This document shows, piece after piece, positions 3,831 through 57,157 of a DNA stretch of 64,000 nt. The stretch is from the NCBI RefSeq assembly GCF_003116585.1, contig NZ_QEHM01000009.1, forward strand, positions 1-64,000, in the 5' to 3' direction. Each line of letters opens with the position of its first letter. Position 1 is the first letter of the stretch. The notes under the pieces were generated by a model that saw only the letters and a program-made list of their open reading frames with translations, searched no databases and was not told where the DNA came from. Origin of the DNA: Albibacillus kandeliae. GTDB lineage: Bacteria; Pseudomonadota; Alphaproteobacteria; Rhodobacterales; Rhodobacteraceae. A program made the translations under genes and the position numbers.

Positions 3831-3974
3831 GTAGGGACGCACTGAACCGGGGACCTTCGGGGCCCTAGAACCCGGGTAGTCTGTCGGATGCGGCCTGTTC
3901 CAGCTGCACGGCAAGTACCCAATACATAGCGGTCCAGATCATCGGGCCGCGTTTGCTAACGGAAGACAGAAAGC

Positions 3975-45760: not shown

Positions 45761-45837
45761 GGTCCGATAGCTCAGCTGGATAGAGTACTTGACTACGAAT
45801 CAAGGGGTCGGGGGTTCGAATCCTCCTCGGACCGCCA
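45761..45837 (+). tRNA. tRNA-Arg (anticodon ACG)
   Basis: The 77-base sequence folds as a full cloverleaf. The acceptor pairs GGTCCGA with TCGGACC and the CCA end is encoded. The D arm contains AGCTCAGCTGGATAGAGT. The anticodon stem CTTGA/TCAAG has loop CTACGAA, so the anticodon is ACG (read as ICG for CGU/CGC/CGA). The T arm contains GGGTTCGAATCC. A strong terminator follows four bases later. Confidence 0.96.
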
Positions 45838-53747: not shown

Positions 53748-54332
53748 TTGGCTAAAACCCTCTCCATCGTCGTCGTCGAGCGCGACCGGGATCGTGCCAT
53801 GCAGATCGTTGACGCCCTGCGCGCGGACGAGGCGCACGAGGTCTTCGTGATCTCGGAAGAGACCGGGCTGGCCCGGCGCATCGCCGAGCGCCGCCCCGAC
53901 GTGGTGCTGATCGACGTCGACAATCCTTCGCGCGATGCGCTCGAGGAACTGGCGATGGCGTCCGGCCCGACCGAGCGTGCCGTGGCCATGTTCGTGAACC
54001 AATCGGGCGACGGGCTGGCCAAGGCGATGATCGACGCCGGAGTCTCGGCCTACGTGGTCGACGGCCTGCGCCCCGAGCGGCTGAAACCCATTCTCGACGC
54101 GGCGGTCGCCCGGTTCCACATGTTCTCGCAGATGCGGGCCGAACTGGAGGCGACCAAGCGCGCGCTGGAAGAGCGCAAGGTGATCGACCGCGCCAAGGGT
54201 CTGCTGATGAAGGCCAAGGGGCTGGACGAGGATGCGGCCTATGCGCTGCTGCGCAAGGCGGCGATGGATCAGGGCAAGAAGGTGATCGAGGTGGCGTCGG
54301 CGCTGGTAACGGCTGCGGGGATTCTCTCGTGA
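53748..54332 (+). CDS. nasT: ANTAR-domain nitrate regulator NasT
   Basis: A 194-residue response-regulator-like antiterminator. The receiver domain begins LAKTLSIVVVERDRDRAMQI and has VLIDVDNPSRDALEEL at the usual phosphorylation position. The C-terminal ANTAR domain (about 135-190) reads RKVIDRAKGLLMKAKGLDED followed by AAYALLRKAAMDQGKKVIEV. ANTAR proteins bind paired hexaloop RNA hairpins and prevent termination. TTG 53748 is taken as start: no ATG fits and AAGGA lies before it. It overlaps nasS in GTGA, and a fitting leader RNA occurs before nrtA. Confidence 0.9.
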   Translation: MAKTLSIVVVERDRDRAMQIVDALRADEAHEVFVISEETGLARRIAERRPDVVLIDVDNPSRDALEELAMASGPTERAVAMFVNQSGDGLAKAMIDAGVSAYVVDGLRPERLKPILDAAVARFHMFSQMRAELEATKRALEERKVIDRAKGLLMKAKGLDEDAAYALLRKAAMDQGKKVIEVASALVTAAGILS

Positions 54333-55507
54333 GCCTGACCGAACTATCTGCCGGTTTTATCCCGCTGGTCGACGCGGCGCCGCTGATCGTGGCGCAGGAG
54401 ATCGGTTTCGCCCGCGAAGAGGGGCTGGACCTCGTGCTGCGCAAGGCGGCCAGCTGGTCGGCTCTGCGCGATCACCTTGCCCTCGGGCAGGTCGATGCGG
54501 CCCACATGCTGGCGCCGGTGCCGGTGGCCGCGGCGCTGGGCCTCGGCGGAGTCGCGCGGCCGCTGGAGGCGCTGTCGCTGCTGTCGGTGAACGGCAATGT
54601 CATCGGGGTTTCGGTCGAGATGGCGTCGCGGATGCGCGCGGCCGGGCACGACTTTGGCTTTGACGACGCGCGCGCGGCGGGCACGGCGCTGATGGCCGCC
54701 TCCGAACGCCAGATCCGGATCGGGGTGCCGTTCCCGTTCTCGATGCACGCCGAACTGGTCTATCACTGGCTAAACGCCATCGGCGTGGCCGCCCCGCAAT
54801 CGGTGTCGGTCCGCACCGTCCCGCCGCCGCTGATGGCCAAGGCGATGGAGGCGGGAGAAATCGACGCCTTCTGCGTGGGCGAACCCTGGGGCTCGATCGC
54901 GGTCGAGAACGGGGTAGGTGAGCTGCTATTGCCGGGCGCGGCGATCTGGTCCTTTGCGCCCGAGAAGGTCCTGGCGACACGGCAGGGCTGGGCCGAGGAA
55001 CACCGCGATCTCGCGTTTCGCCTGATCCGGGCGCTCTGGCGCGCCGGGAGGTGGCTCGATTCCATCGACAACCGGCTGATTGCGACCGAGCTGCTCTCGC
55101 GTCCCGACTACCTCAACCTTCCGCCCATCGTGCTGGAGCGCGCGCTGACCGGGCAGATCGTGGTGTCGTCGCGGGGCGAGACCCGGAAGGTAGAGAACTT
55201 CGTCGAGTTTCACCGGGGCGTGGCGGGCTTTCCCTGGCGCAGCCAGGCGGTCTGGATCGCGACGCGGCTGGCAGCACGCACCGGGCTCGACCGGGCCGAG
55301 GCCGCAGCGGCGGCACGGGCGGTGTTCCGGTCCGACCTCTACCGCGAGGCGCTGCAGGGCACGGGCGCGGACCTGCCGGGTGCGTCCGAGAAACTGGAAG
55401 GCGCGATTGCCGATCCGACGGCAGTGGCCAGCCAGTCCGGGACGCTGATTCTGCCCCGGAACCAGTTCTTCGACGGCACAATTTTTGACCCTTACGACAT
55501 TTCCTGA
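54329..55507 (+). CDS. nasS: Nitrate sensor NasS (NrtA/CmpA-like, cytosolic)
   Basis: A 392-residue protein homologous to the nitrate-binding protein NrtA but lacking a signal peptide, as expected for the cytosolic sensor NasS. In studied proteobacteria NasS holds NasT inactive until nitrate or nitrite binds. Shared NrtA-type segments are SAGFIPLVDAAPLIVAQEIG, QVDAAHMLAPVPVAAALGLG and DAFCVGEPWGSIAVENGVGE. The GTG start overlaps the nasT stop, so the two are coupled. The next gene, nrtA, starts after a 276-base leader. Confidence 0.9.
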   Translation: MSLTELSAGFIPLVDAAPLIVAQEIGFAREEGLDLVLRKAASWSALRDHLALGQVDAAHMLAPVPVAAALGLGGVARPLEALSLLSVNGNVIGVSVEMASRMRAAGHDFGFDDARAAGTALMAASERQIRIGVPFPFSMHAELVYHWLNAIGVAAPQSVSVRTVPPPLMAKAMEAGEIDAFCVGEPWGSIAVENGVGELLLPGAAIWSFAPEKVLATRQGWAEEHRDLAFRLIRALWRAGRWLDSIDNRLIATELLSRPDYLNLPPIVLERALTGQIVVSSRGETRKVENFVEFHRGVAGFPWRSQAVWIATRLAARTGLDRAEAAAAARAVFRSDLYREALQGTGADLPGASEKLEGAIADPTAVASQSGTLILPRNQFFDGTIFDPYDIS

Positions 55508-55531
55508 CCTCTTTTTGAACACTGCGCGGGC

Positions 55532-55555
55532 TTTCCGGCCCGGGCAGACCGGAAA
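55532..55555 (+). repeat. Hairpin after nasS
   Basis: TTTCCGG (55532-55538) pairs with CCGGAAA (55549-55555) around a CCCGGGCAGA loop; ATTCGTCCC follows. It is a weak terminator at best and may end part of the nasTS message. Confidence 0.45.
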
Positions 55556-55612
55556 TTCGTCCCGTTAGCGCAAATTCTCTGGATCGGTCGGCAGGACCGT
55601 GGGTATCTGAAG

Positions 55613-55643
55613 GTGTCCGGCAGGCAATGGCGCCGTCAGACAC
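55613..55643 (+). promoter_or_regulatory. Predicted NasT-binding hairpin in the nrtA leader
   Basis: A long stem pairs GTGTC (55613-55617) with GACAC (55639-55643), then GGC with GTC (one G-U), and after a bulged A, GGC (55623-55625) with GCC (55632-55634). The loop is the hexanucleotide AATGGC (55626-55631), with A at position 1 and G at position 4. This matches the hairpin rule known for ANTAR targets. It stands 26 bases before the terminator hairpin, as in known ANTAR-controlled leaders. Confidence 0.72.
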
Positions 55644-55669
55644 GATCCCAGGACGGGACTTCCAAGCAT

Positions 55670-55729
55670 GGTCGCTTGAACGCTCTGCACAGCTTTGTGC
55701 GGATCAGTTCGATGCGGCCTTTTTGTTTT
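55670..55729 (+). terminator. Leader terminator upstream of nrtA (NasT-controlled, predicted)
   Basis: GGTCGC pairs with GCGGCC, TTGAAC with GTTCGA, and CTGCAC (55685-55690) with GTGCGG (55697-55702), around a hexaloop AGCTTT, with small internal loops. TTTTTGTTTTG follows at 55720-55730. The structure is an intrinsic terminator 55 bases before nrtA. The hexaloop keeps A at position 1 but has T at position 4, where known ANTAR hairpins have G. Confidence 0.78.
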
Positions 55730-55783
55730 GCGGCGCCACCCCTTTCCTCACGCGGTCGCGCCCCCGATTGAAAGGACTGGACT

Positions 55784-57157
55784 ATGAACAAGAGTGTCTT
55801 GGCGGCCCTCGCCTCCGCAACCGCCCTCGCAGGTTCCCTGGCCCACGCGGAAATGCTGGAGCTGGAAAAGGATCAGCTGACCTTCGGTTTCATCAAGCTC
55901 ACCGACATGGCGCCCCTCGCGGTGGCCTACGAGCAGGGCTACTTCCTCGACGAGGGTCTGTTCGTGACCCTGCAGGCGCAGGCGAACTGGAAGGTCCTGC
56001 TGGATGGCGTGATCGACGGGCAGCTTGACGGGGCGCACATGCTGGCGGGCCAGCCGCTGGCCGCCACCATCGGCTTCGGCACCGAGGCGCACATCATCAC
56101 CCCCTTCTCGATGGACCTGAACGGCAACGGCATCACCGTGTCGAACGAGGTCTGGGACCTGATGCGCCCGAACATCCCCTCGATGGAGGATGGCCGTCCG
56201 CAGCACCCGATCTCGGCCGAGGCACTGAAGCCGGTGATCGACCAGTTCAAGGCCGAGGGCAAACCCTTCAACATGGGCATGGTCTTCCCCGTCTCGACCC
56301 ACAACTACGAACTGCGCTACTGGCTGGCCGCCGGCGGCATCAACCCGGGCTTCTACAGCCCCGAGAACGTCTCGGGCCAGATCGCGGCCGATGCCTTCCT
56401 CTCCGTGACGCCGCCGCCGCAGATGCCGGCAACGCTCGAAGCCGGGACCATCTCGGGCTATTGCGTGGGCGAGCCGTGGAACCAGCAGGCCGTGGCCAAG
56501 GGCATCGGCGTTCCGGTGATCACCGATTTCGAGATCTGGAAGAACAACCCAGAGAAGGTCTTCGGCATCACCGCCGAGTTTGCCGAGGAAAACCCGAACA
56601 CCACCAAGGCCGTGGTTCGCGCCCTGATCCGCGCCGCCATCTGGCTGGACGAGAACGACAACGCCAATCGTCAGGAAGCGGTCGAGATCCTCTCGCGCCC
56701 CGACTACGTCGGCGCCGATGCCGAGGTGATCGCCAACTCGATGACCGGCACCTTCGAATACGAGAAGGGCGACGTTCGCGAAGTCCCTGATTTCAACGTT
56801 TTCTTCCGCTACAACGCGACCTATCCCTACTACTCCGACGCGGTCTGGTACCTGACCCAGATGCGCCGCTGGGGCCAGATCGCCGAGGCCAAGCCCGACA
56901 CCTGGTATGACGAGGTGGCCAAATCGGTCTATCGCCCGGACATCTACCTCGATGCGGCCAAGAGCCTCGTCGATGACGGTCTCGCCAATGCCGCGGACTT
57001 CCCCTTTGACAGCGATGGTTACAAAGAGCCGACCCCGGCTGCCGACATCATCGACGGCGTGCCCTACGACGGCCGCCACCCGAACGCCTACCTCGACAGC
57101 CTGACCATCGGCCTGAAGGGCGAGCAGAAGGTCGTCGGCACCGAGGTGCAGGGCTAA
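55784..57157 (+). CDS. nrtA: Nitrate ABC transporter substrate-binding protein
   Basis: A 457-residue NrtA/CmpA family protein. Signal peptide [20 protein letters not shown], then [20 protein letters not shown] and [20 protein letters not shown], and the C-terminal lobe with [20 protein letters not shown]. It lacks a visible lipobox, so it is a soluble periplasmic protein. Nitrate is favoured over bicarbonate because of its neighbours (nasTS, nirBD, nitrate reductase). AAAGGA precedes ATG. Regulation by the leader is predicted. Confidence 0.92.

Follow-up and report, generated by a model that had tools for sequence, protein, structure and literature searches.

The closest described system is the nasA leader of Paracoccus denitrificans, in which, according to the accessible parts of the published work, nasT and nasS are followed by a leader that NasT binds and whose first hairpin is essential (PMC3795266, PMC5424462). 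As the available sections report, nitrate dissociates the NasS-NasT complex, and the nasA leader is shifted by NasT (PMC3795266); replacing the first hairpin abolished growth on nitrate, and mutating the second changed little in nitrate and gave two-fold higher expression in ammonium (PMC5424462). The two published hairpins are 46 nt apart, and the available passages leave any middle hairpin unmentioned (PMC3795266, PMC5424462). In the Enterococcus faecalis eut leaders, the targets of EutV, two hexaloop hairpins (P1 and P2) carry A at loop position 1 and G at position 4 (A1 and G4) and P2 overlaps the terminator stem; their linker is 5-12 nt long, 14 nt being poor, and the accessible text mentions no third hairpin (PMC3369931). 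In the EutV structure, in the portions of the report at hand, Tyr164 stacks with the flipped G4, which is surrounded by Arg142, Lys143, Lys147, Lys149, Glu160, Arg168 and Met172, and the dimer grips one hexaloop at a time, a hand-over from the recruitment hairpin to the antiterminator hairpin being suggested (PMC8934654). The way in which an ANTAR dimer engages both hexaloops of an RNA is not settled. The available account of the Klebsiella oxytoca nasF leader likewise describes nitrate-controlled antitermination, with P1 and P2 bearing A1 and G4, but NasR, unlike NasT, senses nitrate and binds RNA in one protein, and there is no NasS (PMC3369936). In Bradyrhizobium diazoefficiens, the accessible passages describe NasT as an antiterminator for several operons, as proposed here, although its targets, unlike here, include nosR (PMC6759348). 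EutV and NasT also differ in their signal, which is phosphorylation for the former and release from a sensor for the latter.

Here we consider the window, a 64,000-nt stretch of Albibacillus kandeliae (Rhodobacteraceae) DNA, in which the intergenic gap between nasS and nrtA very probably holds a NasT-controlled transcription antiterminator. As the sequence-only reading had it, nasT and nasS lie directly upstream on the same strand, a placement that coordinates and Pfam families bear out. The nasT gene (53751-54332, plus strand; start codon provisional, the frame being open from 53601) encodes a pseudo-receiver and ANTAR protein, the ANTAR domain matching Pfam above its cut-off (E 5.4e-21) and the receiver domain weakly, below its own cut-off. 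The 5′ end of nasS (54329-55507, plus strand) overlaps the 3′ end of nasT, and this overlapping pair stands directly 5′ of the 276-base gap. NasS, an NrtA-like nitrate sensor, matches Pfam NMT1_2 (E 3.8e-65), and NrtA belongs to the same family; nrtA (55784-57157, plus strand; placed by NMT1_2 and its reading frame) is the first gene of the putatively controlled operon. Hence adjacent nasT and nasS stand 5′ of nitrate assimilation genes, with NasS NrtA-like by family. Further downstream, an 812-residue product is NirB (NCBIfam TIGR02374); we take the operon after nrtA to hold transport genes, nirB and more genes of nitrate and nitrite reduction, the names other than nirB being provisional and partly those of the earlier reader. 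NasT is the sole ANTAR match in the genome (E ≤ 0.001). A scan of the window against Rfam 15 returned no family relevant to the leader, at gathering score or at E ≤ 10; the matches above gathering score lay elsewhere in the window, an L2-Alphaproteobacteria ribosomal protein leader and a tRNA (3849-3972, 45761-45834).

The leader has the parts of the eut switch. P1 (55613-55643, plus strand; GTGTC-C-GGC-A-GGC-[AATGGC]-GCC-GTC-A-GACAC) carries the hexaloop AATGGC at 55626-55631, with A1 and with G55629 as G4, the loop that had been proposed from the sequence, and is supported by both folding and covariation. A candidate antiterminator hairpin P2 (55663-55678, plus strand; CAAGC-ATGGTC-GCTTG) is predicted by folding, its loop at 55668-55673 having A55668 as A1 and G55671 as G4. 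Thus both hairpins have at least three pairs and a hexaloop with A1 and G4. The stem of an intrinsic-type terminator follows at 55670-55719 (plus strand; 5′ arm 55670-55681; fold and covariation) and runs into the T-rich tract TTTTTGTTTT at 55720-55729, the ending which the earlier reading had given it. Since the terminator 5′ arm holds P2 loop positions 3-6 together with the P2 3′ arm (common bases 55670-55678), P2 and the terminator are mutually exclusive. Alternative folds show the same overlap: folded alone, 55608-55679 gave P1, a middle hairpin and P2, and when the fold was extended to 55730 P1 and the middle hairpin were kept while P2 was replaced by the terminator. None of 200 dinucleotide shuffles folded as well as 55608-55730, compared with 16 of 200 for the 5′ part alone and 13 of 200 for 55600-55760. 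The minimum-energy fold of this last stretch retained the terminator and middle hairpin and lost P1 and P2, P1 because its bases pair with bases 3′ of the T tract, and this counts against the antiterminator reading; as the 30 extra 3′ bases lie past the termination point, only RNA from read-through would be expected to fold in this way. It also counts against that reading that a simple terminator scan missed the 55670-55719 stem, the interruptions in this stem being the probable reason. A stem enclosing P1 and the middle hairpin, also seen in the window fold, was dropped, as it had at least three pairs in 82 of 157 minimum-energy folds and varied with the folding start point.

Relatives were collected by a NasS protein search, which gave 44 loci whose titles name nearly all of them as Rhodobacteraceae or Roseobacter relatives. 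A Sphingobium locus without nrtA beside nasS (L044) was excluded, so that the compared set comprised 44 leaders, the window and 43 NasS-found loci, one of them (L040) trimmed to its last 300 bases. G4 is present in all 44 leaders in both loops, and A1 in 40 of the 44 P1 loops and 43 of the 44 P2 loops. None of the other 43 leaders shares the window P2 loop, ATGGTC, in which A1, G4 and C6 are nonetheless retained. Alignment of the relatives' leaders, which the earlier reading had proposed as a check, revealed covariation in P1, the middle helix and the terminator arm, and a little in P2. In a plain MAFFT alignment with 43 distinct rows, the three-helix structure was 83% paired, compared with 29-45% when slid along the alignment. 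The P1 helix was 79.8% paired and seven of its eight pairs change on both sides, while two P1 pairs, the outermost and the internal A.C site, are unpaired in 22 of the 43 rows. For P2, 94.8% of pair cells were standard, with two of the five pairs changing on both sides and two invariant; for the terminator arm, the figures were 96.3% and five of ten pairs changing on both sides. RNAalifold run without a given structure returned P1 and a terminator that starts at P2 loop position 3. This position and the last terminator base co-change (A-U in 38 of the 43 distinct leaders, G-C in 4, the G-C rows representing at most three lineages, and another combination in 1), so that one base of the P2 loop varies as part of the terminator, which is the mark of mutually exclusive structures; in the window, the G at loop position 3 is paired by C55719 of the terminator. 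Of 157 minimum-energy folds of relatives, 100 contained P1, 129 contained P2 and 79 had the three hairpins together, which counts against the antiterminator reading, and the case therefore rests on covariation and on the conserved loops.

Two other accounts of the terminator have to be weighed against this antiterminator. The sequence-only reading had taken AGCTTT (55691-55696) as the second ANTAR hexaloop and regarded the T at its position 4 as an interesting variant, and opening the A55691-T55696 pair does give a six-base loop starting with A. This loop is the tip of the terminator, mistaken for P2, and is predicted to be a tetraloop, GCUU. Its length varies across the 44 leaders; it has six bases in 7, of which 2 have A1 and none has A1 and G4, so that no leader of the 44 has such a hexaloop there. 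Moreover, NasT at the tip alone would leave the terminator unblocked, and 55663-55678 offers a conserved P2 that has both A1 and G4. The real second hairpin is likely this one, 5′ of the terminator tip, and a role for the tip as second NasT loop is hardly credible. Alternatively, the stem could end the nasTS transcript constitutively, leaving nrtA to a promoter of its own and outside NasT control. The terminator does lie 3′ of nasS, and nasTS and nasABGHC are separate transcription units in P. denitrificans, according to the available part of the report (PMC5424462). A constitutive terminator, though, leaves unexplained the invariant G4 in both P1 and P2, the P1 covariation together with the bases common to P2 and the terminator, and the presence of a like leader before cysG, away from nasTS (see below); we consider it very unlikely. 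A simple scan found no sigma-70-like promoter in 55300-55900, which counts against the antiterminator reading. Sigma-54 and NtrC patterns (2 and 3 mismatches allowed) were no more numerous in the window than expected by chance, and none occurred in the stretches 5′ of nasT or nrtA.

The antiterminator reading, that is, a two-hairpin ANTAR target at which NasT would prevent termination before nrtA, was already the central proposal made from the letters, and the sequence and comparison support it. It is directly supported by the RNA anatomy, by the exclusion on paper, by covariation and conservation, and by the residues of NasT. In a phmmer alignment of NasT with EutV (6WSH), R142, K143, K149, E160, Y164, R168 and M172 are identical and K147 is replaced by R, the numbering of the EutV paper apparently fitting the chain with a shift of two. 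An ANTAR protein that conserves the EutV contact residues, as given in the accessible text (PMC8934654), is therefore encoded in the same genome, by a gene close to the leader.

From published work on relatives, nitrate would be expected to release NasT from NasS, and NasT to bind the leader and permit read-through. Without nitrate, NasS would hold NasT, the terminator at 55670-55719 would form and most RNA polymerases would halt at the T-rich tract. When nitrate or nitrite is present, NasS would free NasT, which would contact P1 first and then keep P2 (55663-55678) hairpinned through the flipped G4, G55671. As a hairpin, P2 would withhold the first nine bases from the terminator, and since G55671 and its neighbours are needed by the terminator, the latter could not form and transcription would run into nrtA and the operon. 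The middle hairpin (55646-55658) would fold up the long gap between P1 and P2, and its G4 loop may itself touch NasT.

Two results from P. denitrificans, as given in the accessible part of the report, count against the antiterminator reading: the small effect of the second-hairpin mutation and nas transcript levels that were similar with nitrate and with glutamate (PMC5424462). If the second hairpin overlaps a terminator there, such an outcome, with the two-fold rise in ammonium, might be expected. To account for the transcript levels, the authors invoke some NasT that is always free and permits read-through, together with a translational nitrate step, according to the same passages (PMC5424462), and this could hold for the window leader as well. 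The P. denitrificans record analysed here (L046) has, like the window, G4 hexaloop hairpins, in this case three G4 loops with the outer two 48 nt apart; unlike the window, it has no T tract within 330 bases of nasS except one right after nasS.

To search the window's own genome we used a leave-one-out covariance model built from the 43 relatives, with the window excluded; its E-values are rough, since the calibrations were short. The model found the window at 47.8 bits (E 9.0e-8). In the window's own genome (5.48 Mb; 3176 first-look candidates, 150 scored) only two sites did better than E 1.54, the value of the third-best match. Among 295 genomes of the family, each of a different genus, 113 had a match to a model of the leader (E ≤ 0.01) and 142 an ANTAR gene, and an ANTAR gene was present in 109 of the 113 leader-bearing genomes compared with 142 of 295 overall. 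The four genomes with a leader in which no ANTAR gene was detected are G054, G118 and G173, all with E above 0.002, and G249. Neither nasTS nor nrtA was recognised next to the leader of G249 (L162, 1701-1831; E 6e-7), which may be what is left of a nas cluster since lost. Conversely, 33 of the 142 ANTAR-bearing genomes had no model match, which counts against the antiterminator reading; judged by their E-values, some of these genomes would encode other ANTAR proteins and some NasT. Also counting against it, the model found neither the P. denitrificans (L046) nor the Sinorhizobium meliloti (L049) locus at E ≤ 0.1. The annotation of L049 has no nas gene 3′ of nasS, and this locus was left out of the downstream reading.

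The fetched loci, drawn from genomes of the family, the window and a handful of named plasmid records, gave 130 model matches. Most of them (106) lie between nasT-nasS and nrtA, and 4 more stand before nrtA with less of the upstream sequence recognised. Nine precede a cysG relative and 2 a nirB relative, while 9 are before none of these genes, six of the latter (L172-L177) being weak matches. Seven of the 130 were removed because their loop was not of six bases in the model alignment (L048, L051, L172 and L174-L177). Duplicates were merged in the wider set, and a few weak matches were retained in it (e.g. L062, L063 and L171, L173). As the resulting 158-leader set was mostly chosen by a model that includes the middle hairpin and the loops, the 44 leaders and the 42 linkers obtained via NasS are the fair sets.

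The second site in the window's own genome is on contig C23 (234835-234942, minus strand; L054, 6836-6943), at 55.5 bits (E 1.4e-9) with the leave-one-out model. It lies directly 5′ of cysG, the downstream product being siroheme synthase CysG (NCBIfam, 510 bits for a cut-off of 400). CysG makes siroheme, which is a cofactor of NirB. The NasT regulon thus probably comprises at least two sites in one genome, with NasT acting in trans on supply of the NirB cofactor, as the sequence comparison suggests. Such a leader would point to a NasT regulon that links an enzyme to its cofactor.

The antiterminator itself is a known kind of switch, and the new part is a conserved third loop with G4. In the window, the middle hairpin (55646-55658, plus strand; TCCC-AGGAC-GGGA) is seen in the folds, and opening its inner C-G pair makes G55652 loop position 4. 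Across the 43 distinct rows the helix was 76.3% paired, with changes on both sides in three of five pairs. The P1-P2 gap of the window is 19 nt from the last P1 pair, of which 6 nt are unpaired once the middle hairpin has folded, and 23 nt from the 8-bp core; measured from the 8-bp P1 core, the relatives' gaps have a median of 30 and a 10-90% range of 24-33. The window's 19 nt exceed the 5-12 nt of the eut leaders, which counts against the antiterminator reading, and lie inside the 2-25 nt accepted for Actinobacteria. The hairpin occurs in all 42 distinct protein-anchored linkers. Mere presence is weak evidence, since 156 of 158 linkers in the wider set have a hairpin compared with 88% of shuffled ones, and 70 of the 158 reach the stability of the top 5% of their letter shuffles. 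Opened to at least six bases, the loop has G4 in 33 of the 42 protein-anchored linkers, compared with 19% in shuffled linkers, and A at position 1 in 20 of the 42. In the wider set, mostly chosen by a model that includes the hairpin, G4 is found in 114 of 155 (18% in shuffles), and in 68 of 75 seven-base loops; among hairpins from linkers less than 60% identical it is found in 72 of 103. The motif [CT]CC...G[AT][CT] occurs in 83 of 158 linkers, compared with a mean of 9.4 and a maximum of 17 in 100 shuffles. The middle loop resembles that of P1 (A-A-N-G-A-Y) with one extra base, and is often a pentaloop closed by a weak pair, such as AAGAC; certain members have a complete hexaloop there, with A1 and G4. 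Among the model-found nrtA leaders, 108 of 110 have the middle hairpin and 80 have G4.

Three consecutive G4 hexaloops occur in Rhodobacter sp. CZR27 (L047), P. pantotrophus (L178), P. denitrificans (L046) and P. marcusii (L181), and by a strict pattern two in P. yeei (L180) and P. alcaliphilus (L182). In Paracoccus sp. AK26 (L179, 3182-5779) the pattern gave no hexaloop series; a convergent nitrate reductase gene follows nasTS, and the NasT of this strain may act elsewhere. Unlike the window, six rhizobial-type leaders (L048, L051 and L183-L186, the organism of L186 being unverified) have P1 and P2 adjacent, without a middle hairpin. P1 and P2 are also adjacent in other genomes of the class (L197, L200, L206 and L207), and L192, from another family, has three loops. 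Among the loci examined, the third loop is therefore found chiefly in Rhodobacterales. A third hairpin in an ANTAR target found no mention in a partial survey of the ANTAR and NasT literature, covering titles, abstract openings and passages; the one paper that speaks of 'three hairpins' deals with other subjects.

The middle hairpin would be either a third loop contacted by NasT or a folded spacer, any role of its loop being one that we infer. If it is only a spacer, it would shorten the single-stranded path from P1 to P2 and its loop letters would be irrelevant, an explanation opposed to the third site and not to the antiterminator itself. In line with this, the 155 linkers with a scored hairpin are all longer than 14 nt in total, a leader with a 9-nt linker (L148) has no hairpin, and the linker of L011 has accommodated an inserted second perfect hairpin. 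The cysG leaders also favour a spacer, in that eight of nine have the hairpin and G4 is present in four of these eight, being missing from L057, L058, L060 and L064. Loop conservation, on the other hand, favours a site: a pure spacer would need neither the G4 that is so frequent in the protein-anchored linkers, and in those under 60% identity, nor the [CT]CC...G[AT][CT] motif. The length of the linker is unrelated to that of the hairpin (r 0.14), so that the idea of linker length being absorbed by hairpin length is unsupported, and in L061 a linker of 17 nt contains no hairpin. Overall, we give the pure spacer a little under an even chance. A three-site arrangement of Rhodobacterales NasT leaders, in which P1, the middle loop and P2 each present a G4 and NasT steps along the emerging RNA, with the middle loop as a relay between the recruitment and antiterminator hairpins, is offered more tentatively, as a serious possibility that we would not yet favour. 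Given the cysG leader of the same build, one NasT pool would then turn on nitrate uptake and reduction together with siroheme supply. With a family that has the third G4 loop, a group that is devoid of it and natural intermediates (hexaloop, heptaloop and closed pentaloop), the hand-over becomes testable by loop swaps.

Two minor observations concern the linkers and the terminator loops. In L011 (4276-4416), the second complete hairpin beside the middle one is GCGTCC-ACTGACA-GGACGC, and its loop has G4 again. A literature search for a UCCUCC motif returned nothing. TCCTCC, which presumably resembles the anti-Shine-Dalgarno end of 16S rRNA, is absent from the window but is found in the terminator loops of relatives (e.g. 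L009, L013 and L017), and 45 of 163 distinct leaders have it somewhere from P2 to the T tract, compared with a mean of 3 in shuffles.
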